A stretch of 25,277 nucleotides of DNA from a virus. The notes beneath the pieces are model-generated. The model was not told where the DNA came from, did no database searches, and saw nothing but the letters and a program-made list of their open reading frames with translations. The translations under genes were made by a program, and so were the position numbers. Below, one piece after another: positions 1 to 11,571 of this stretch (the first letter of the stretch is position 1; the number at the start of each line of letters is the position of its first letter). Where the stretch lies: positions 1-25,277 of IMG/VR virus record IMGVR_UViG_3300025141_000677. One strand, written 5' to 3'.

Positions 1-568
1 CTTTAATTGAACCTTTATTCTTCGCAAGCGCAGATGATTTACGCTTCGGCACCAGATTGGTTTGTGGAAAAGCACCCTTCGTCTTCGGGAGAGTGTAGGT
101 TAGTGTAAAATCAACACCATTATCCACGTCCGTAATGTCACCATAGTCAGGATTTAAAACTAGACCCAGCAATGTCTCATAAATGGTCTTACCATAACCC
201 CAAATGCGTACACCAGCTTCCTCGTTGCCCCGATCAATCACGGGTGAGAAAAAGCGTTGGCGAACGAAAAGAGACTTAGCCATTTTCTTGCTATCGTCAG
301 TTCCTTCTTGCCACAACTTTGAAGCGAAATCACAAATTGGACAGTTTTCACCAAACTGCCGCTTAGGACAAAGGACGCCTCCGCGAGCCCCTTCACCCAA
401 ATTATAATGAAAGTGATAAACCTTAAACGGATCACCGTCTTCGGTTGGAACAATTCTAATATCTTGATCACCTTCCTGCGGTCGCCACCAAACATTATCC
501 TGTTTGGATTTTCCGCCGCTTTCTAAATCTTGAAGCTTTGACTTCATTTTTGCCATATCTAATGCCAT
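1..568 (-). CDS. gp32-like single-stranded DNA binding protein (3' end cut by window edge)
   Basis: The visible 189 residues begin MALDMAKMKSKLQDL and run off the window, so the C-terminus is missing. The start ATG at 568-566 has a strong AAGGAGG at 576-584; a second in-frame Met at residue 5 is less well placed. A Cys/His cluster fits the zinc module of T4 gp32: H52, H54, C67, C76 and C79, the last two in CPICDFASK (T4 has CPVCQYISK). Further on, VRIWGYGKTIYETLLGLVL at 120-138 resembles the T4 stretch VFKYRFGKKIWDKINAMI. In the T4 family this protein coats ssDNA during replication, recombination and repair. It is the last visible gene of the replication cassette. Its codons look more GC-rich than those of the genes just upstream, similar to the capsid gene, which suggests high expression (inference). 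Assignment rests on motif recognition, not a search. Confidence 0.85.
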   Translation of the reverse strand, partial: MALDMAKMKSKLQDLESGGKSKQDNVWWRPQEGDQDIRIVPTEDGDPFKVYHFHYNLGEGARGGVLCPKRQFGENCPICDFASKLWQEGTDDSKKMAKSLFVRQRFFSPVIDRGNEEAGVRIWGYGKTIYETLLGLVLNPDYGDITDVDNGVDFTLTYTLPKTKGAFPQTNLVPKRKSSALAKNKGSIK

Positions 569-1107: not shown

Positions 1108-1938
1108 TTATTTTTGAATCACCGATGAGTGATTCACGCAATAAATATAATCTTGTTCATAATCTGTTTCGAATATTCCATAAGTAACTCTAACATCATC
1201 TTCTTTTTTTGACGATACTGCATTTTTAATCTTACTCATTAATTCAAAATCCGATTCAAGCTTGTCTTTATTGTGAGTATAATAATACACTATATCGGAC
1301 ACGTTGTCAAGAGAAAAAAACATTTTATCCTCATTTTTTTCTAGGTCTGACATTCCAATTGTTGTAAGGCGAGCACCTACAGGAACCGAACAAAATGTGT
1401 CATTAACAGAATCATTATTTTTATAAACATTAATCATATGAATTGTTGAAACCACCATTTCATTAATCTTATCATTATAATTCTTGATAGAAATGTTTCC
1501 TACAATATGGGCCACTTCTTCATTAGATACTAAATACATTCTTTCAAAAACTCCAGATCGAGTATACTCCTGAAAGACATTATAAACTAATTTTTCTAAT
1601 TGTGACTGAGATTGATTTAATAAAGAAAGTTCTGGCTGGATATAAAGAATATTTATGTTACATTTTTTAAGATATTGTAGTATTTGTAACGATGCTGATG
1701 ATACTTTTCCTGCACCGGCCACGACGAATAGAATGTCGCCACTCACATCCTTGAAGAATGTCTTAAGAGAGGGCATTTTTTCCTCATAATCTTCAAACTT
1801 TTCATACTCTTTTAGAGGGAAAGTAGTTGGGGTCCGCTTCAAGCCAACGTCCAATTTATACGTCAAATATTGAGGATATTTGGTGAACTTATCAACGATG
1901 TTACAGCCTGCATTTCCAAGTCCAATGATGGTATCCAT
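1108..1938 (-). CDS. Divergent FtsZ/tubulin-superfamily protein
   Basis: The 276-residue protein opens with MDTIIGLGNAGCNIVDKF, matching the first strand and glycine loop of FtsZ (IKVIGVGGGGGNAV in E. coli). Residues 67-83 (GDILFVVAGAGKVSSAS) align with the FtsZ segment ending in GGGTGTG, but the signature is reduced to AGAGKVSSAS. Residues ~132-170 (ERMYLVSNEEVAHIVGN, then a helix with N155-D156) follow the FtsZ order of a strand ending in a PN-like turn, then a helix with ND. The C-terminal half is short and I see no NxDxxD-type T7 loop, so GTP hydrolysis is doubtful. FtsZ is about 380 residues. The ribosome site is weak (GTGAG inside the preceding gene, whose stop lies 3 nt upstream), suggesting coupled translation. 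In other phages tubulin relatives (PhuZ, TubZ) make filaments that centre or segregate DNA; whether this one polymerises is unknown. Confidence 0.6.
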   Translation of the reverse strand: MDTIIGLGNAGCNIVDKFTKYPQYLTYKLDVGLKRTPTTFPLKEYEKFEDYEEKMPSLKTFFKDVSGDILFVVAGAGKVSSASLQILQYLKKCNINILYIQPELSLLNQSQSQLEKLVYNVFQEYTRSGVFERMYLVSNEEVAHIVGNISIKNYNDKINEMVVSTIHMINVYKNNDSVNDTFCSVPVGARLTTIGMSDLEKNEDKMFFSLDNVSDIVYYYTHNKDKLESDFELMSKIKNAVSSKKEDDVRVTYGIFETDYEQDYIYCVNHSSVIQK

Positions 1939-2552: not shown

Positions 2553-2717
2553 TTATGCTGCTCCATAAAAGATCAATTCAAATTTAGAACCGCTTCTATA
2601 TTTTCCTGCTCCTAGTGCGACCTTTTGGCTTAACACAATCATAAGCGCGTCGGGGTCGTCAGCAACAACTGTAATTTGTCTATCATCTTCTTTATAAATT
2701 AATTTATATTTTTTCAT
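2553..2717 (-). CDS. 54-residue microprotein translationally coupled to the DNA polymerase gene
   Basis: This short ORF starts MKKYKLIYKEDDRQITVVAD and ends SGSKFELIFYGAA, 54 residues. Its ATG overlaps the polymerase stop as ATGA (2717-2714), and its TAA at 2555-2553 is followed immediately by the ATG of the pyrophosphohydrolase gene. It therefore fills the gap exactly, which is strong evidence that it is translated. A beta-strand pattern at both ends with a short helix (DALMIVLSQKVAL) between suggests a small alpha/beta fold. I know no family for it. The position suggests a polymerase accessory or a regulator of nucleotide supply; this is inference from context only. Confidence 0.7.
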   Translation of the reverse strand: MKKYKLIYKEDDRQITVVADDPDALMIVLSQKVALGAGKYRSGSKFELIFYGAA

Positions 2718-3916
2718 CTAAATTTCCTCATATTGCCAAAGCTTGTTCCAAGACTGGTATTGACTTTAAAAACACCTAAATCAGTATCTCCAAATTCTTT
2801 TATTAAATTGTCTAGAATATCTTTGTCATTACGATCAAAGTCAATTACCATACTATCATGAATGAGCCCCATTGTAAAGGACTTTCTTCCTTCCAATAAT
2901 TTATTTACTGCTATTGCTCGCCTTAGAAAAGTGTCTGAAGTTGTGCTTTGGATGAGTGCATTCAAAGCATGAAACTTATCTGCTTTTACTTTGCGACCGA
3001 AAGGATTAATAATTTCTTTGCCGTTCCAATAATTCTGTAATGCTTTTTCTTTATCATAATATCTTTGAACTTCTGGAATACCAAGAGATGCATTTGGTGG
3101 GCCATACAACCATCCAAATATTTTACGTTTAATTTCCTCTCGACTCATTGTGCAATTAAGAAGGCGATCAAATATGCGACCGTGCCACTGATGAATATCT
3201 TCTTCTGGCTGCTCTTGTTTGTTCAATGCCAGCAAACATCGAAGTTCTGCTGCATTAAAATCAAGTTCAACAAACCAATCATTCTTAGGCATCACAACAT
3301 TTCTGTAATTTTTATCCAGAGTTAAAATAGGAAAGGAATCTTTTTTTGTTGTAAGGCGACCTGTGATTGTTCCAAATACATTATAAGAAATACAAGGTTG
3401 TATTCTTGCGAGCTTTTCTTTAAACTTTCTGGTACGAAACTCATATAATTTGGTATCAAGTGCTGACAAATCAATGTTAAGTTTATTGTTTTCTATTTCA
3501 AAGATTAGATCTGAGAGTTCCAATAAGAAATTATAGTTCTCTGGTTTTTCATAAGAATTTAAAACATGATCTGTTATCTGAGATTTCATATCAAAATATT
3601 CTTTAACAAAAGATTCAGGCACAAGATCATAAAAACAATAATCATTATATTTAACCTTTGCTTCTTCAAAAGATTTAATATAAGCAAAGTGTTTTTGTTT
3701 AGTTTTTTCCCAATCATCTTTTAAAATGTCAGGACAACACTGATCAAGGTTTTGACCTTGAGCATATAAATAAGCATATTTAATATCTTGATCTTTTAAA
3801 ATTGAGTTATATGACCAAGTTTTTGAAAGCTTATTATATTCTGGTTCAGATATAATTTCCTTATTTGAATAAATGCTTGCGCATTGTTGTTTGTTATCTA
3901 TTATTTGAAATAACAT
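2714..3916 (-). CDS. Family A DNA polymerase, polymerase domain only, short form
   Basis: All core family A motifs are readable in 400 residues: TGRL at 185-188; motif A ELDFNAAELR with D219, E224 and R226; motif B with R259, K263, F267, Y271 and G272 in the canonical spacing; an IQSTTSD helix at 322-328 matching QGTAAD; and motif C IHDS with H353 and D354. The metal-binding aspartates are therefore kept. Motif C has Ser where most members have Glu (HDE). No 3'-5' exonuclease motifs appear in the ~165-residue N-terminal part, which looks unrelated to Klenow. The stretch from the motif B Tyr to the QGTAAD-like Gln is ~52 residues versus ~83 in E. coli Pol I, so the fingers are shortened. The start lies 13 nt after the preceding gene and lacks a good ribosome site. 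The role is probably replication or gap filling. Confidence 0.9.
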   Translation of the reverse strand: MLFQIIDNKQQCASIYSNKEIISEPEYNKLSKTWSYNSILKDQDIKYAYLYAQGQNLDQCCPDILKDDWEKTKQKHFAYIKSFEEAKVKYNDYCFYDLVPESFVKEYFDMKSQITDHVLNSYEKPENYNFLLELSDLIFEIENNKLNIDLSALDTKLYEFRTRKFKEKLARIQPCISYNVFGTITGRLTTKKDSFPILTLDKNYRNVVMPKNDWFVELDFNAAELRCLLALNKQEQPEEDIHQWHGRIFDRLLNCTMSREEIKRKIFGWLYGPPNASLGIPEVQRYYDKEKALQNYWNGKEIINPFGRKVKADKFHALNALIQSTTSDTFLRRAIAVNKLLEGRKSFTMGLIHDSMVIDFDRNDKDILDNLIKEFGDTDLGVFKVNTSLGTSFGNMRKFR

Positions 3917-5131: not shown

Positions 5132-7840
5132 TTAACTCCCCTGTTTTGGTTTTTCTTCAATACTCTTGGTTGTAGATACAGATTTAATTTTAGTTGACAA
5201 TACGTCCCTCATTCTTAAACCAAACTCACTTTTGGTTGCGATTTTTGTATAATACATTCCTGGTCCGATTTCGTGTTCAACTCCAATAATTCTATAAAAG
5301 CCACCAAGTCCCAAAGTCATCGCCCATTTCATTCCTACATTTGGCCCAAGACCCAATGATCTAGGATCAATATACACTGCCATTCCAGGCTTAAAGTATG
5401 CATTACCCAACATTGAAACATTGGCATCATATTTATCCGACATTAATAGTTGAGATCGTACACCAGTATCGACGCCTCGTAAGATTGAGCTTGCTAATAA
5501 GCCTGGAACTTTATCCCTAGTAAACGATATGTTTTTAACAAGTCCTGTGGCATTTCCAACAAGCAAATGAGGAATGTTATAACCTTGAACCAACTTTAGT
5601 GCTTCTCCAACGTTATCAACTTTTGGCATTTTAGTAACAGCACTTATATAAATCCACGGAATAATAGTATTTGACGAACCTTTCGATTTACCACCTAACT
5701 TAGCTTGTGCCTCTTCTAATTCAGTTATTTCAATACGTTTGCGTTTGCCTTTCATCCAAAGATTATCTAATTTACTGTTTTTAGGAATATTTAATGTACT
5801 TATTTCTAAGTGAGTTGTTGGCTTATCTCCCAAAGAAGTCATTCTTCCGCTTGCGTCTTCTTCAGTATCTTGATCGAATTTTCTAACAGGAGAAGTTTGA
5901 AGTTTTAACACGCTCGTTACCAATTTGGAACAAACATCAGCAAGAAATTTTCTTAATGGCCAAGAAGATCGTCCTTCTGCAACGACAGATTTATAAAAGA
6001 ATATTTTAAACTGCTCCATAGAGATAGGAATATCTGCTAAATTCATCGGTTTTAGTTGTCCGTCTTTGGGATCAACTATAAGAACAGACCCCAACAAAAG
6101 TCTTGCGGTCTTATACATATATTTGCCATGAGGATTTGTTTTTCCCACCACTGGCCTATCACAATTTTCTTTTGTCTCTGGCCTCCAATGAATAATGCCC
6201 ATCGCAGCCTCAAATAAATCTCCTAAAAAAAAATAATTTATTCGATGAGTTAAACCTGGACCAGGTTGTTCTGAGGTTTGTTGCCAAGAAACTGGTTTTG
6301 CAACTTTAGCCACTCTTTCTTTAATTTCATCTTGTGATCTTGCATCCTTTATGAGTTCTTTAGATTCTTTTTCAACTTTCGCTTTAAAATTACTTGAGTC
6401 TATATTTTCAGACATATTAATTCTTATAGATTGTTGAATTTTTTTGGAGGCTATTGTTTGTGCTTTTTTTAATTTTGCCAAAACTTCTTTTGTCATGGTG
6501 GCTCCGGTCGCACCGTCCTTTCCCTTCGCCACAATTGTTCCAGGCGCACCTTTTTTATTGGGGGGAGCAATTCTTAATGTGCGTTCTTTGGCGCGTAAGG
6601 CTGATAAGTTTAGATATTCCTGAACTGCTTCTCGTGGAACGTCCACATAAAAGAGTCTACTATTTTTCTCAAAGCTCTCAATGTAACCCAAAAGTTTGCC
6701 CCACGCATCAGGCAAATTTTCTGCCCTTAACGAAAATAATTGTTCTGTTGTTAAGTCAAACTCAGATTGAAGTTTCGCTGCTTTTGTCAACTTTTCTTCA
6801 TTTTTTGCTTTCGAAACAGCTTGCGACAGTTTCTGTCGCTTATTGTTTAATGTTCTTATTGTTTGAGCCCTTACTTGCTCTTTTTCTGAGTTCTCATCAA
6901 TCATAAATAAATCATATTTTTGGGTATTCATAGCAGATTCTAATCTCCCAGTAAATTGACAATCTAATTTTACGACCCCGCCATCTCCAATATTTAAGTT
7001 AATTCGGTGCGTCTGAACTTGTAAGACAGATCTCAAAGTTTCAATAATTTTTATCTGGTCTGGTGTAAAAATTACGTTTCCGGGATCTGTAGGAACACTC
7101 CAGCCAGCTCTAATTTCTAATTCAAATGGTGGGATGACACGTTGGTTTGCTTCTATTATTGCCGCCAAACTTTCATTAGTTTCTTGAGGTTTAAGATTAG
7201 TTGGAACATTTGTGGTAAGATCACTAAATTGAACCATTACTTCTTTGTCAACCATCTTGCCACCTTCTTCTACTTTAGCTTTGACGCCAGTTGGTCGAGG
7301 CATAAAAAGTGCTTCAAAACTTTGAAAAGTTAATTTTAAATTTCCTTCAATGGTAACGCCTGCATATGCAATATCAGTTCCGGTATCACGCCATGTTAAA
7401 TTAGTGAGGGCTACATCGGTGCCACGGCCTTCAATAGACTTAGTTATAGAATCAACAGTGGTAATTTGATTAATCGGATAAGGGACAGACTTATACTCAC
7501 CACCTCCAACATTAACTTTTTTTATAAGTTTAATTTCTGGTGTTAAAAGGGACCAATGTTGCGGCTCTAATCGATTTAAAAATTCTGAGGAAAACACTCC
7601 TTGCAATTTATTCTTTGCAAAAATTGCTCCACCATCAAGCACAGCTATATTTTTATAAGCTTTCGGAACCAATGCGTTTGATGCTTGGGTCTGTACAGAT
7701 TTGCTGGCTTGTCTTCGATAGGGTTCGAGCTGATCATTTGAAAGCGCCGTTGCACGGTCATACTTATCAAAATCAACTTCATCATTGGTGAATTGGTCAA
7801 TAAAGTCTAATAAAAATGTTTGATCATTAATGGTTTCCAT
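5132..7840 (-). CDS. Large baseplate hub-like virion protein (gpD/gp27 type)
   Basis: The 902-residue protein ends (from about residue 820) with MAVYIDPRSLG, then GLGGFYRIIGVEHEIGPGMY near residues 845-865. This resembles the C-terminal beta-barrel of phage tail hub proteins (P2 gpD, T4 gp27, Mu gp44 families), where a G-Y-x-V-x-x-V-x-H-x-I pattern precedes the final strands. Upstream are an N-terminal part (1-~310) rich in beta strands, a charged helical stretch at ~320-378 that may be a coiled coil, and a Lys-rich Gly/Ala linker near 425-445. It follows the LysM-like gene by one nucleotide (TAATATG), as hub genes do in P2-type tails. Typical hubs are 350-450 residues, so half of this protein is extra. 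No lysozyme or peptidase motif was seen. The hub assignment is from one motif plus order. Confidence 0.6.
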   Translation of the reverse strand: METINDQTFLLDFIDQFTNDEVDFDKYDRATALSNDQLEPYRRQASKSVQTQASNALVPKAYKNIAVLDGGAIFAKNKLQGVFSSEFLNRLEPQHWSLLTPEIKLIKKVNVGGGEYKSVPYPINQITTVDSITKSIEGRGTDVALTNLTWRDTGTDIAYAGVTIEGNLKLTFQSFEALFMPRPTGVKAKVEEGGKMVDKEVMVQFSDLTTNVPTNLKPQETNESLAAIIEANQRVIPPFELEIRAGWSVPTDPGNVIFTPDQIKIIETLRSVLQVQTHRINLNIGDGGVVKLDCQFTGRLESAMNTQKYDLFMIDENSEKEQVRAQTIRTLNNKRQKLSQAVSKAKNEEKLTKAAKLQSEFDLTTEQLFSLRAENLPDAWGKLLGYIESFEKNSRLFYVDVPREAVQEYLNLSALRAKERTLRIAPPNKKGAPGTIVAKGKDGATGATMTKEVLAKLKKAQTIASKKIQQSIRINMSENIDSSNFKAKVEKESKELIKDARSQDEIKERVAKVAKPVSWQQTSEQPGPGLTHRINYFFLGDLFEAAMGIIHWRPETKENCDRPVVGKTNPHGKYMYKTARLLLGSVLIVDPKDGQLKPMNLADIPISMEQFKIFFYKSVVAEGRSSWPLRKFLADVCSKLVTSVLKLQTSPVRKFDQDTEEDASGRMTSLGDKPTTHLEISTLNIPKNSKLDNLWMKGKRKRIEITELEEAQAKLGGKSKGSSNTIIPWIYISAVTKMPKVDNVGEALKLVQGYNIPHLLVGNATGLVKNISFTRDKVPGLLASSILRGVDTGVRSQLLMSDKYDANVSMLGNAYFKPGMAVYIDPRSLGLGPNVGMKWAMTLGLGGFYRIIGVEHEIGPGMYYTKIATKSEFGLRMRDVLSTKIKSVSTTKSIEEKPKQGS

Positions 7841-7841
7841 A

Positions 7842-8180
7842 TTACAAGCCCCAATAATCTAAAACACGTTCAACAGGTAATGGAATTTGTACTACATCTC
7901 CCATCACTAAATGAGATTCAGTGGGTTTTTGATTAAAGCGAGCGATGACCCACCACAAAGTTGGATCTCCATAATACTTATTGGCTAATTTATAATAACG
8001 ATCTCCCATTACCCACAAATGAGAAATAAGTTGTAAAGACGAAATTTCATTTACACTCAATTCTCTCATTTCGAGCGTAAAATATTGTTCAATGTATGGC
8101 ACATTTCTTTCTTTAAAGATCTTGGCATATTTTTTTGAACTATTTATGCCGATGTCTGTTGTGTCATATCTTGATGCCAT
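7842..8180 (-). CDS. LysM-like baseplate protein, gp53/gpX type
   Basis: In 112 residues the C-terminal half reads GDRYYKLANKYYGDPTLWW, then VIARFNQKPTESHLVMGDVVQIP. This is the LysM-like pattern of T4 gp53 and of P2 gpX/XkdP-type tail proteins: D-R-x-x-x-L-A-x-x-x-Y-G-D-x-x-x-W-W-V-I followed by a late G-x-x-L-x-I-P strand. These proteins join baseplate or hub parts at the tip of the tail. The N-terminal ~60 residues, with a probable beta hairpin, are not diagnostic. The gene lies directly between the tube-initiator-like and hub-like genes. A sense ACTATTTAAT element lies 21 nt before the ATG. Confidence 0.75.
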   Translation of the reverse strand: MASRYDTTDIGINSSKKYAKIFKERNVPYIEQYFTLEMRELSVNEISSLQLISHLWVMGDRYYKLANKYYGDPTLWWVIARFNQKPTESHLVMGDVVQIPLPVERVLDYWGL

Positions 8181-8200
8181 TTATAATCCAACCTATTCTA

Positions 8201-8210
8201 ATTAAATAGT
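8201..8210 (-). promoter_or_regulatory. Repeated intergenic element ACTATTTAWT, copy 1
   Basis: The sense strand reads ACTATTTAAT. The element includes the stop codon of the preceding gene (8204-8202) and lies 21 nt before the next ATG. CTATT and AATAG form a perfect 5-bp inverted repeat (8193-8197 and 8205-8209). Four other copies occur upstream of structural genes. It may be a late promoter or an RNA signal; the function is inferred from repetition alone. Confidence 0.4.
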
Positions 8211-9092
8211 AATTGTTCCGCCCGACTCAAGCGCGGCAACGTCTTGGAGAAGTCTCGCTTGGTTGGCAGCCTTTACATTCGAATTTTTAGTTTTTTGCGC
8301 GGGCGTTTCAGCCAAAGCAGTAGTTTTTGGTGTAACCTTTTCTCCATAAGGAAATTTTTCATTGCCCGTAACAGGACCAAATTGAGTTTGATTTTGTGTG
8401 ACAGTTTTCTTGTCATCCTTAATACTTTTCGCCTGTCTGTTAGATTGCCCTTTTTCCCACCCAAGAGGATGCTCGTGGATCACATCTAATGTAACACTAA
8501 TATCAAAAGCTTTTGCATAAATGCTGGTTCCTCGATGAAACACACCATCTGCAAGTCTCGGTGCGAAAGAAAAACCCTTGCAAGCGACCAAGAGTCCACT
8601 TCCATCTTTACTATTTTGAACCCAATTCATAAATTGTACTTTCCATAATGGAGAAGCTTTAATTGTTCGCGCTGCTGCGCCGTATGCATCAGATCCCATA
8701 TCAAAAGTTGGATATAACATTTGTGTTAAAGTCGAAAGTTTTTTCATATTATCTATAGATTCTCTAACAGATGCAGCAGGCACACTAAAACCTAAACTTA
8801 TACTTCTGGATGTATTCTTAAAAATTTGAATATTATCCATTCGTCCATAGCCTTCCTCACCTTTCCAATTAGAATTATACCTATCTGTAAAGGCAGTAAG
8901 AAATGCTTTAAAGTCTACTACTTTGCCTGTGGCAACATGCATAAACTGGATTTGTTGTCCGCCCCGATTTGCTAATTCATTGGTTTGATCCGCAAACCTT
9001 GAAGTTGCTCCACCAAAAAAACCACGCACATCACCAACTGTATCATCTACGAACGTTGATACTGCGTCTTTTGAACTATCGAAAAATGCCAT
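8202..9092 (-). CDS. Tail tube initiator-like / gpU-position tail protein
   Basis: The 296-residue protein has a strong AGGAGG before its ATG. The core, roughly residues 50-130 (HVATGKVVDFKAFLTAFTD, then YGRMDNIQIFKNTSRSISL), carries the YGRxDxxxxFxxTxRxIS pattern that I associate with baseplate/tube-initiator proteins of contractile phages (T4 gp48/gp54 region). The first ~45 residues may form an amphipathic helix. The C-terminal ~90 residues are polar, rich in Lys/Thr/Gln and probably disordered, ending in GGTITI. Its place, directly after the tape measure and before the LysM protein and hub, matches the gpU or initiator slot of P2/SPO1-type tails. The exact equivalent is uncertain. Confidence 0.65.
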   Translation of the reverse strand: MAFFDSSKDAVSTFVDDTVGDVRGFFGGATSRFADQTNELANRGGQQIQFMHVATGKVVDFKAFLTAFTDRYNSNWKGEEGYGRMDNIQIFKNTSRSISLGFSVPAASVRESIDNMKKLSTLTQMLYPTFDMGSDAYGAAARTIKASPLWKVQFMNWVQNSKDGSGLLVACKGFSFAPRLADGVFHRGTSIYAKAFDISVTLDVIHEHPLGWEKGQSNRQAKSIKDDKKTVTQNQTQFGPVTGNEKFPYGEKVTPKTTALAETPAQKTKNSNVKAANQARLLQDVAALESGGTITI

Positions 9093-9162
9093 TATATCCT
9101 CCTATCCTTTCTATTAATAATTAGCGGGATAAGATTTTTGCTTCCAACAAAAGATGATCCTA

Positions 9163-11571
9163 TTATTTATCGAGATTGAGCATTGACATAATCGGTGCGT
9201 TCGTACTCGTTTGTGAAAATAGTTGTGCTACTGTGGTCGTGGCTACACTAGCAACTTTTGTATTTCCTGCGTCATTCCACACTAGATTTATTTCTAGGGG
9301 CTGTTCAAGAAGAGATTGAAGCAGTGGCGGAACACTCATCATTGGCCCTTGCTCTTCTTCGCCCGCGCTGGGTTGTTGGTATCCGCTGTATGGTCGCATT
9401 AAAGGCTCGTCGCCTGCGCCAGCTCTAAAAGGAGAAGCATATCCTTCGGGGGGAAGTCTCATTCTGCCAATTTCCACGAGTTCAGCCTCTAATTTTGCTT
9501 TTTCGGCAGACAGTCCCCCCATCTTACGTTTAACATTTTCATTATTTGGATCAAGCCATCCCCCTGCATAACGAGATCTATAATCCTCGATCTCCGACAA
9601 CTTTCCTTTAACAACGTCCTCGCGCTCAAAAGCTTCTCGGGTCATGCCTGGATACTTAAATAATTGGGATTGCATTTGAAGTTCTTTCTTCGCATCCGCC
9701 GCCCCGGTTCCGAACATCGCATAGCCCATAGGCCCGGTGGCCATGTTTGCCATCATACCAGTAAGCTGAGACATAAGTTGAAAAAATGAATGTTTCATAT
9801 TAGTAAACCATCCTATCACAGCGTTCGCCATTCTTGATACAGTTGCTTCAATCCCACCCTTGAAAAATCCTCTGTTGTTAACGAAATCTTCCCATAAGTT
9901 TTTAAGTGGACCTTTCACAAATTGATCAAAGAACCGTTGAGCTTTTGGGAGCATTACATCAAACCAATCCCCCAAGCCTCTCATCGCAGCAGGAATATTA
10001 TCTTTAAGAAATACATAAAGACTTTTCACATGATCCAACATTGGAAAACCCATGTCTCCCGCATGTGCATATTTATCAAAGAAGCTCATTACAATTACAT
10101 CAAGAGATACAAATTTTGCCTTTATTTTGTCCCAAAGTGCTCCCAAGTTGTCCCAATGCAAATATACTGTTGCCAAACCAGTGATCATAATAGACCACGG
10201 GTTTGTAAGAAGACCCATTAATGGACCAGCAATCTCCTTAACTTTTCCAAGAGCCAACGAAAAAAGTGATGCTTTAACAATAACTTCTCCAATGGTAACA
10301 ATAGAATTTTTAAAATCACCATCCAATGCTCGCCACCATTTGAAAATATTTTCAACACCCGCAGCAAAATGGTCAATAACACCAGCAGATTTGCTTAATT
10401 CTATTCTAGCCCAATTTGTAAACATTCGAGCAACTGGCAGAAAAGCTTTTCCAAAAACATTTGATAAGCGATTAAATTCTGCCGACCATTGTTGAGTAAG
10501 TGTAACACCATCTCTTATTGCCTTGGTTAAATCTTGTTGTGCGACGATAGCCGGATCAGCTTTGTTCGCGATTTCATCCCAAGTTGCTTGCTCTGTTCCA
10601 AACAACTTCATGGCATCTGTCATGTCTGAGATTCCCAAAACTGTGGCAACCCCTTTGCGCTGGAAGCGATCCATCATCTCCCAACTTTGGCCCGAAGCTC
10701 TAATTGATTCACGAATCATTTCAACTCGCTGTTCTTCTGAGGCTGTCAACATATCCACACTATTGATAAGATTTCCTCCCAACATAGCATTAAGTTGACC
10801 AGCTTTTTGAGCAGCTTGTTCAAATGTATCAAAGCCGCTTGCAATTTGTAAAAGAGTATTTATTGCAATTCCGGTTGCTTTTGATTGAACAGCCAATCCT
10901 TTAAAAACGGAAATACCTGATTGACCATATTTTGCAAGATTGCTCATCGCTGGGCCGAAAGCCCCTTCAATAACTTTTGGTGCCATCTCAATGGAAAGGG
11001 CGAACTTTTTCATATCATCAGAGGCTTTCTGAGATTGATCAATGCTCATTCCCAATCCTTTGCGATAGATATCAAAATTCTTGGTGGATGTTTGAATCGA
11101 AACACCCAAGCGAGTAAACCCAAGAGCTTGTTGAGTAATAGCATTTTGTGCTTTGGGAGCTAAAAGACTAAATTCAGAATAATTGTTATATAATTCAGAA
11201 AATGCGGCTTGTGTTTCAGAAGTTGCAACCCCCAAATCAGTCATTTTGGCCTGAAGATTGACTGCCATTTCAGCAAATTCTTCACCGCGACCAGTTGATT
11301 GTTGAAGTTCTGCTCGTAATTTATCTATATCTGTGGCAGCTTCAGCGAAACCTTTTAAGTTGGTTTCACCGACGCCCATCGCTTTCGCAAAATCTGTTGC
11401 TGCTCCTGCGGCTTCTTCAAAAGGCACCGCCAATGCTTCAGCATTCTTCCGCAGCGTTTTCATAATGTTTGCAAGCGCGGCTGCACCAGTTACCGTTTTA
11501 AGTGCTTCGGCGGCTTTGGCGGCTTTGGTTGGATCTACAGTGCCTCCGCCTTCTCCATCATTTTCTGCCAT
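9163..11571 (-). CDS. Tail tape measure protein
   Basis: This is an 802-residue, Ala-rich, largely helical protein between the frameshifted chaperone-like gene and the tube initiator. The N-terminal ~400 residues have the small-residue helical texture of tape measures (for example ATDFAKAMGVGETNLKGFAE). Around residues 430-475 there is a hydrophobic block (IVTIGEVIVKASLFSLALG, then SIMITGLATVYLHW) that may insert into the host membrane, and a second small hydrophobic stretch rich in Met and Gly lies near 605-630. No peptidase or lysozyme motif was noted. By the usual rule of about 1.5 Å per residue the tail would be roughly 120 nm (estimate). The ribosome site GAGGA is about 13 nt from the ATG, longer than usual. 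An ACTATTTAAT element lies 24 nt upstream. Confidence 0.9.
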   Translation of the reverse strand: MAENDGEGGGTVDPTKAAKAAEALKTVTGAAALANIMKTLRKNAEALAVPFEEAAGAATDFAKAMGVGETNLKGFAEAATDIDKLRAELQQSTGRGEEFAEMAVNLQAKMTDLGVATSETQAAFSELYNNYSEFSLLAPKAQNAITQQALGFTRLGVSIQTSTKNFDIYRKGLGMSIDQSQKASDDMKKFALSIEMAPKVIEGAFGPAMSNLAKYGQSGISVFKGLAVQSKATGIAINTLLQIASGFDTFEQAAQKAGQLNAMLGGNLINSVDMLTASEEQRVEMIRESIRASGQSWEMMDRFQRKGVATVLGISDMTDAMKLFGTEQATWDEIANKADPAIVAQQDLTKAIRDGVTLTQQWSAEFNRLSNVFGKAFLPVARMFTNWARIELSKSAGVIDHFAAGVENIFKWWRALDGDFKNSIVTIGEVIVKASLFSLALGKVKEIAGPLMGLLTNPWSIMITGLATVYLHWDNLGALWDKIKAKFVSLDVIVMSFFDKYAHAGDMGFPMLDHVKSLYVFLKDNIPAAMRGLGDWFDVMLPKAQRFFDQFVKGPLKNLWEDFVNNRGFFKGGIEATVSRMANAVIGWFTNMKHSFFQLMSQLTGMMANMATGPMGYAMFGTGAADAKKELQMQSQLFKYPGMTREAFEREDVVKGKLSEIEDYRSRYAGGWLDPNNENVKRKMGGLSAEKAKLEAELVEIGRMRLPPEGYASPFRAGAGDEPLMRPYSGYQQPSAGEEEQGPMMSVPPLLQSLLEQPLEINLVWNDAGNTKVASVATTTVAQLFSQTSTNAPIMSMLNLDK

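Follow-up and report, generated by a model that had tools for sequence, protein, structure and literature searches.

A viral replication operon was found to contain a gene for a 276-residue protein that, judging from its predicted structure, very probably has a complete two-domain tubulin/FtsZ fold. The reading that we favour, and to which we give about an even chance, is that the protein belongs to a tubulin-fold family built into the replication operon, where it would serve as a non-hydrolysing accessory or scaffold of a replisome tied to one particular family A DNA polymerase (PolA). The DNA analysed, referred to here as the window, is the whole 25,277 bp stretch (positions 1 to 25,277) of IMG/VR virus record IMGVR_UViG_3300025141_000677.

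Gene family and predicted fold

The open reading frame was recovered at the previously described position, with 276 residues, on the minus strand and with an ATG start (Table 1). It is a real gene, since loci of its family were confirmed by the hundreds in IMG/VR: a first scan with the window protein gave 23 loci, and scans with alignments confirmed at least 524, later at least 589, of 600 candidate stretches. The gene is under purifying selection, with dN/dS values of 0.04-0.27 in 32 pairs, some of which are near-repeats, and dS up to 1.9. The alignment used throughout (A4) holds 102 sequences, namely the window protein and those of 101 of 150 loci (L001-L101, L103-L151), leaving out repeats of one contig and near-identical or truncated sequences. 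No significant match to the window protein was found in Pfam, PHROGs, NCBIfam or the sequences of the PDB, nor did PDB profile searches built from 19 and from 72 members of the family give any. Weak Pfam and PHROG matches (DEAD, TrkA_N and others) were judged to be chance; no family was common to many members, and the best were PF20835 (3.1e-4, in 1/72 members) and phrog_29734 (0.0013, in 3/72). A tblastn search of 50,697 phage records with the window protein gave no match at E<=1, and one with a relative gave two matches only, both at a chance-level E of 0.7. Among bacterial genome records there was a single carrier, a WOR-3 MAG (L151, CP070664.1), in which PolA, tubulin-like, SSB and RecA clusters lie at 6811-10873. 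The title of this contig names it a WOR-3 chromosome, and a canonical FtsZ is encoded elsewhere in it, so that the four clusters belong to a phage that is either inserted or mis-binned.

Table 1. Features of the tubulin-like gene, its product and the surrounding operon (window coordinates)
Feature	Position	Strand	Details
Tubulin-fold protein gene	1108..1938	minus	276 aa, ATG start
T1 phosphate loop	1897..1923	minus	residues 6-14, GLGNAGCNI; G6, G8, G11 in 102/102
Altered T4 loop	1690..1719	minus	residues 74-83, AGAGKVSSAS (FtsZ: GGGTGTG)
Family motif QE[YF]xRS[G]	1552..1572	minus	residues 123-129, end of H5
T6 Asn139	1522..1524	minus	99/102
Helix H7	1420..1479	minus	residues 154-173, holds N159 and H167; from model and conservation
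Segment expected for T7 and H8	1369..1419	minus	residues 174-190; placed by secondary-structure order
Second (C-terminal) domain	1111..1368	minus	residues 191-276; from model and fold comparison
gp32-like ssDNA-binding protein (SSB)	2..568	minus	cut by window end
ORF, 149 aa	594..1043	minus	between tubulin-like gene and SSB
ORF, 73 aa	1942..2163	minus	just upstream of tubulin-like gene
ORF, 129 aa	2163..2552	minus	cluster present in 30/102 loci
DNA polymerase family A (PolA)	2714..3916	minus	400 aa, upstream in operon

The AlphaFold2 model of the window protein built from the 102 sequences reached a pLDDT of 95.1 and a pTM of 0.92 (94.3-95.1 across five models), and contains an N-terminal nucleotide domain, a central helix H7 and a C-terminal domain. 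No further domain is present within the 276 residues, and the predicted chain stops 5 residues past the final strand of its C-terminal domain. Foldseek comparison with the PDB gave 648 matches at E<=1e-3 (best 1.1e-11), and among the 50 matches listed all were TubZ or FtsZ entries. With VIA-align the best structural match was CetZ (3zid_B; Z 24.1, 3.0 Å, 254 residues, 16% identity), with TubZ (2xka_C; Z 22.7, 3.1 Å, 271 residues) and FtsZ (2r6r; Z 21.7, 3.5 Å, 264 residues) also aligned; in the 50 matches listed Z was 20.5-24.1 over 254-271 residues, and the range covered in the model ran from residue 1 to residues 272-276. An earlier model, built from 19 sequences, had a pLDDT of 72.5 and was confident chiefly in the first domain; its 50 listed PDB matches were all FtsZ, tubulin or tubulin-holding complexes, and its best VIA match was CetZ (Z 18.6). 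These predictions bear out the FtsZ/tubulin assignment made in the earlier note, as they contain both H7 and the second domain and not a Rossmann enzyme fold lacking them.

At the level of sequence, the link to FtsZ is marginal. Alignment of A4 with six FtsZ sequences (A5) by hhalign was collinear over 257 columns, with an E of 0.023 and a probability of 2%. This score was reached by 1/15 column shuffles and 3/60 block shuffles, and by 0/60 block shuffles when similar coverage was also asked for. The Pfam Tubulin family (PF00091) was matched in 5/72 members (best E 0.0085), whereas the window record gave no hit to it at E<=10, and comparison with PhuZ of phage phiKZ aligned 28 columns covering T1 only (E 0.05). 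The full-length tubulin match that the earlier note named as support was obtained from the modelled fold but not from the profiles, which together with the shuffle controls did not reach proof of homology to FtsZ. Since the profile evidence is weak, assignment to the superfamily depends on the structural prediction.

A second phage tubulin family, of canonical type, was met during these searches (alignment A9, built from 15 of 80 loci, with L318 left out for its stop codons). It is exemplified by L189:1030-2121 (minus strand) on contig IMGVR_UViG_3300025131_009739, where a weak late-sigma-factor match (E 0.018) adjoins the gene. The family has a GGGGGTGS loop and invariant D249 and D252 that align with FtsZ T7; a single scan confirmed 107 places, of which 80 were listed, on contigs of up to 281 kb, and no match was found in phage records. 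Against FtsZ this family was detected by hhalign at 97.7% (E 2.2e-12), showing that the method works and that the window-type family is more distant. Comparison of A4 with A9 shows nothing, because 20/60 shuffles reached its score. A general pairing of the two tubulins was considered and set aside: the second protein was present in 1/18 IMG/VR records (17 window-type, one PolA) and 0/3 phage records, and conversely a window-type protein occurs in 5/15 records that were selected by the second family.

Nucleotide site and conserved motifs

The stretches that had been read as following FtsZ topology correspond to residues 4-15 (IIGLGNAGCNIV) and 67-83 (GDILFVVAGAGKVSSAS) of the window protein and to a later 'SN' at S138-N139. 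The hhalign alignment sets the T1 loop against the T1 glycines of FtsZ and N139 against N165. Neither GGGTGTG nor GGGTG[ST]G is present in the window protein, and the change extends to the family: the consensus of the T4 loop over 102 sequences is G-x-G-x-[IV]-S-[GAS]-A (G75 in 87, G77 in 95, position 78 variable, I or V79 in 95, S80 in 89, G, A or S81 in 96, A82 in 75), in which the T-G of the FtsZ signature is replaced by x-[IV]. The earlier description of a degenerate nucleotide loop holds with a qualification: T4 has been changed without being erased, and both T1 and T6 are retained. Its statement that the GGGTGTG signature is lost stands for the window protein and, in respect of T-G, for the consensus of the 102 sequences.

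Two further residues may belong to the site. D30, at the end of strand S2, is kept in 98/102 sequences and may be the counterpart of the acid in the NTD motif of FtsZ; this placement is our own reading, and hhalign does not align D30 there. N159 (99/102) may be the guanine-contact residue, given its position on H7. The positions of T3, T7, H8, H9 and N159 were assigned by eye from the order of structural elements, by which H9 also seems to be missing from the model. A T3 motif was not found in residues 32-48 of the family alignment. Residues 174-190, where T7 and H8 would be expected, contain no conserved acid pair (NxDxxD in T7) in the 102 sequences, residue 176 being D or E in 58/102 and residue 180 being D in 36/102, and this agrees with the previous suggestion that the T7 catalytic loop is lost. 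No helix lies between H7 and the first strand of the second domain in the model, so H8 is not predicted. The T3 stretch (1.65 bits) and the T7/H8 stretch (1.88 bits) are the least conserved of 22 hand-drawn regions, against a mean of 2.54.

Strong conservation is found elsewhere, at Q23-Y24, Q123-E124-Y125-x-R127-S128 and H167-M168, H167 on H7 being present in 102/102. By the usual topology of tubulins we take the QE[YF]xRS motif, H167 and the like to lie on the lower face, away from the nucleotide face. Taken together, the retention of T1 and T6 suggests that nucleotide binding may persist, whereas the replacement of T-G in T4, the lack of a conserved acid pair and the lack of the helix suggest that the usual longitudinal contact and hydrolysis are missing. 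Handling of the gamma-phosphate and cross-subunit catalysis would then be lost, and canonical protofilaments are made less likely by the lack of the T7/H8 segment.

Replication operon and linkage to one polymerase

The gene had been placed inside a phage replication cassette, beside DNA polymerase and the ssDNA-binding protein. The cassette is real, but in the window the gene is near these two rather than adjacent to them, being separated from SSB by the 149-aa ORF, which has no significant family match, and from PolA by three small ORFs (54, 129 and 73 aa). In relatives the arrangement is often tighter: of 93 PolA ORFs, 59 immediately precede the tubulin-like gene. Between the stop of PolA and the start of the tubulin-like gene the median distance is 1 nt (n=92), and in 59 loci it does not exceed 50 nt, counting overlaps. 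Gene clusters, each named from one representative, were counted in the 102 loci, many of which are on short contigs; SSB was found in 98, PolA in 92, RecA/UvsX in 77, 5'-3' exonuclease in 59 and DnaB in 41, and all of these share the strand of the tubulin-like gene. It is highly likely that the tubulin-like gene is a core gene in this replication context. For the PolA of the window, of only 400 aa, tblastn against phage records gave a single distant match at E<=1e-5; this PolA could be a trimmed or split polymerase and possibly a marker of the lineage.

When loci were picked by PolA similarity (the best 80 of 589 confirmed places), 80/80 had the tubulin-like protein downstream of PolA and in the same orientation, at a distance of up to 312 nt in 75 and of 477-2497 nt in the other five. 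As the PolA query alignment itself came from tubulin-bearing loci, a more independent set was sought. This consisted of 15 long records picked by another gene (the contigs over 100 kb among the 80 places listed for the second tubulin family, apart from a sixteenth for which both proteins had been recorded before), in which two pairs look nearly identical. A strong PolA match (E<=6e-157) was found in five, all of which have the tubulin-like protein; in seven PolA was matched weakly (E 5e-23 to 1.3e-11) and in three not at all, and the tubulin-like protein was found in 0/10 of these at E<=1. All eight window-type records tested gave a strong PolA match (8/8). In five related phage records (LR756508, Mel-JY01, immuto, RM378 and LR756511) no tubulin-like match was obtained at E<=10; PolA was matched weakly in four and not at all in RM378. 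In the records examined, presence and absence thus go with the strength of the PolA match, indicating that the tubulin-like gene follows one clade of PolA, though a very divergent relative could be missed in the records that gave no match. In Mel-JY01 an ORF of 428 aa follows PolA; the idea that it encodes a longer relative was dropped once its translation had been read by eye, and the search of that record gave no match.

In immuto, Mel-JY01 and LR756508 a different protein of 129-151 aa (A8) lies downstream of PolA, either directly or after one ORF (L277:1346-1801, L278:5621-6064 and L279:7785-8174). It carries the motif HRKKxxNTxYTIN and has no convincing family match. Mutual exclusion between A8 and the tubulin-like protein is possible. 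A8 matched its three source records and neither of the two other related phages; it was matched weakly in 1/8 window-type records (E 1.8e-4) and in 0/15 of the other long records, in a search without any positive match.

The major capsid protein of the virus is nearest, among phage records, to those of LR756508, Mel-JY01, Flavobacterium immuto phages and RM378, which suggests an uncultured lineage related to the Far-T4 phages. In the available parts of the literature, Far-T4 phages are uncultured apart from RM378 (PMC4360716, PMC13037479) and a Far-T4 cluster is tied to Flavobacteriales (PMC13037479). The words 'ftsz' and 'tubulin' do not occur in the available text of either paper, and no tubulin-like protein in Far-T4 phages appears among the titles and abstract openings listed in literature searches, a scope outside which most subscription papers and bioRxiv preprints fall.

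Comparison with known tubulins and possible functions

PhuZ resembles the window protein in being phage-encoded and in having the tubulin fold, with its N-domain, H7 and C-domain, and PhuZ of phage Noxifer was matched among viral models in BFVD (9.5e-6). In those models PhuZ and the named phage tubulins rank below two others, the best being an uncultured Caudovirales phage 'FtsZ' (A0A6J5RW92; TMq 0.83, E 3.0e-12, 452 residues, 14% identity to the window protein) and the next a Myoviridae cell division protein. As described in the available parts of PMC3678025 and PMC10299810, PhuZ has a GTPase site and a T7 aspartate and forms filaments, and its homologue in phage RAY keeps the T4 signature, whereas the window protein lacks that signature, has an altered T4 and shows no T7 acids. 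The C-terminal helix and knuckle described for phiKZ PhuZ in the available text of PMC3678025 have no equivalent tail in the window chain. A further contrast with PhuZ is that the window protein has 276 aa and that its gene sits in a replication operon, in a lineage related to the Far-T4 phages. To TubZ the structural match is one of the best, over 271 residues, and the differences are that the window protein has neither a GGGTG[ST]G loop nor a C-terminal part beyond the core. With CetZ and FtsZ the window protein shares T1 and T6, and differs from them in the replaced T-G of T4, in T3 and T7 that were not found, in an H8 that is not predicted and an H9 that is apparently absent, and in a profile match that is not significant. 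Makarova and Koonin (2010, PMC2875224) used profile and motif searches to find distant families of the FtsZ superfamily. In the available text these are described with a GGGTG(S/T)G loop that binds GTP, a loop not present in the window protein, and nowhere does that text use the word 'phage'. Phage tubulins such as PhuZ and TubZ are thus known, and what appears new, within the libraries and literature searched, is a large family that lacks both the T4 signature and the T7 acids and is embedded in a replication operon.

For the favoured reading, a non-hydrolysing replisome accessory or scaffold, the protein may bind guanine nucleotide, would not hydrolyse GTP by the usual cross-subunit mechanism or form canonical protofilaments, and would serve the PolA/SSB machinery as a structural or accessory subunit, perhaps through QE[YF]xRS and H167. 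Polymerisation through a non-canonical interface is possible. The fold and the context are computed and the mechanism is inferred; an operon neighbourhood is not proof of physical partnership.

Alternatively, the protein may be a cytoskeletal filament of the PhuZ/TubZ kind with a divergent site, positioning or segregating replicating DNA. The full tubulin fold, with TubZ and CetZ among its best matches, the retained T1 and T6 Asn, and the action of known phage tubulins on phage DNA (in the available parts of PMC10299810) are consistent with a filament, but the replaced T-G of T4, the absence of a conserved acid pair and of a helix after H7, the poor conservation of residues 174-190 and the lack of a C-terminal tail after the last strand argue against one, and we consider it possible but unlikely. 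A stricter form of the accessory reading, in which the protein is an obligate subunit of the viral family A polymerase, such as a processivity or coupling factor, that has lost the tubulin GTPase cycle, is rather doubtful; related phages have a different small protein in the same place. The protein could also sense guanine nucleotides and thereby regulate PolA or the replication operon, without being a fixed replisome subunit. This would fit the retention of T1, N139 and N159 alongside an altered T4 and missing T7 acids, as well as the tight coupling of the gene to PolA. Such a sensor is improbable, there being no further domain in the 276 residues and nucleotide binding being itself predicted.

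The earlier note had also raised the possibility of a decoy that poisons host FtsZ and blocks division. An FtsZ-like fold would suit this role, and other phage proteins acting on FtsZ, namely lambda Kil, T7 Gp0.4 and P1 Icd, are described in the accessible part of the literature. Beyond the fold, however, nothing points to a decoy, and the constant position of the gene downstream of PolA in the 80 PolA-selected loci, the purifying selection and the location inside a replication operon make it very improbable. Last, a plain NAD(P)-binding Rossmann enzyme is rejected as extremely improbable on the fold comparisons, even though a GxGxxG after strand 1 (G6-x-G8-x-x-G11), D30 at the end of strand 2 and weak Pfam matches (TrkA_N in 8/72 members, Sacchrp_dh_NADP in 4, ApbA in 2) fit it, because the PDB matches listed (50 in each comparison) were all FtsZ, TubZ, CetZ, tubulin or tubulin complexes and covered both domains, and the six FtsZ sequences likewise have T1 glycines and, close to where S2 ends, the acid of the NTD motif.

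The phage tubulins considered here, PhuZ and TubZ, are filament-forming GTPases, and a non-hydrolysing family would show the fold outside the cytoskeleton. Its linkage to PolA would give a testable function to a core gene found hundreds of times in IMG/VR, with a bearing on the evolution of the tubulin fold without GTP hydrolysis and on replication by viruses with a PolA of only about 400 aa. If the favoured reading is true, a cytoskeletal fold would have been turned into part of a viral DNA-copying machine.
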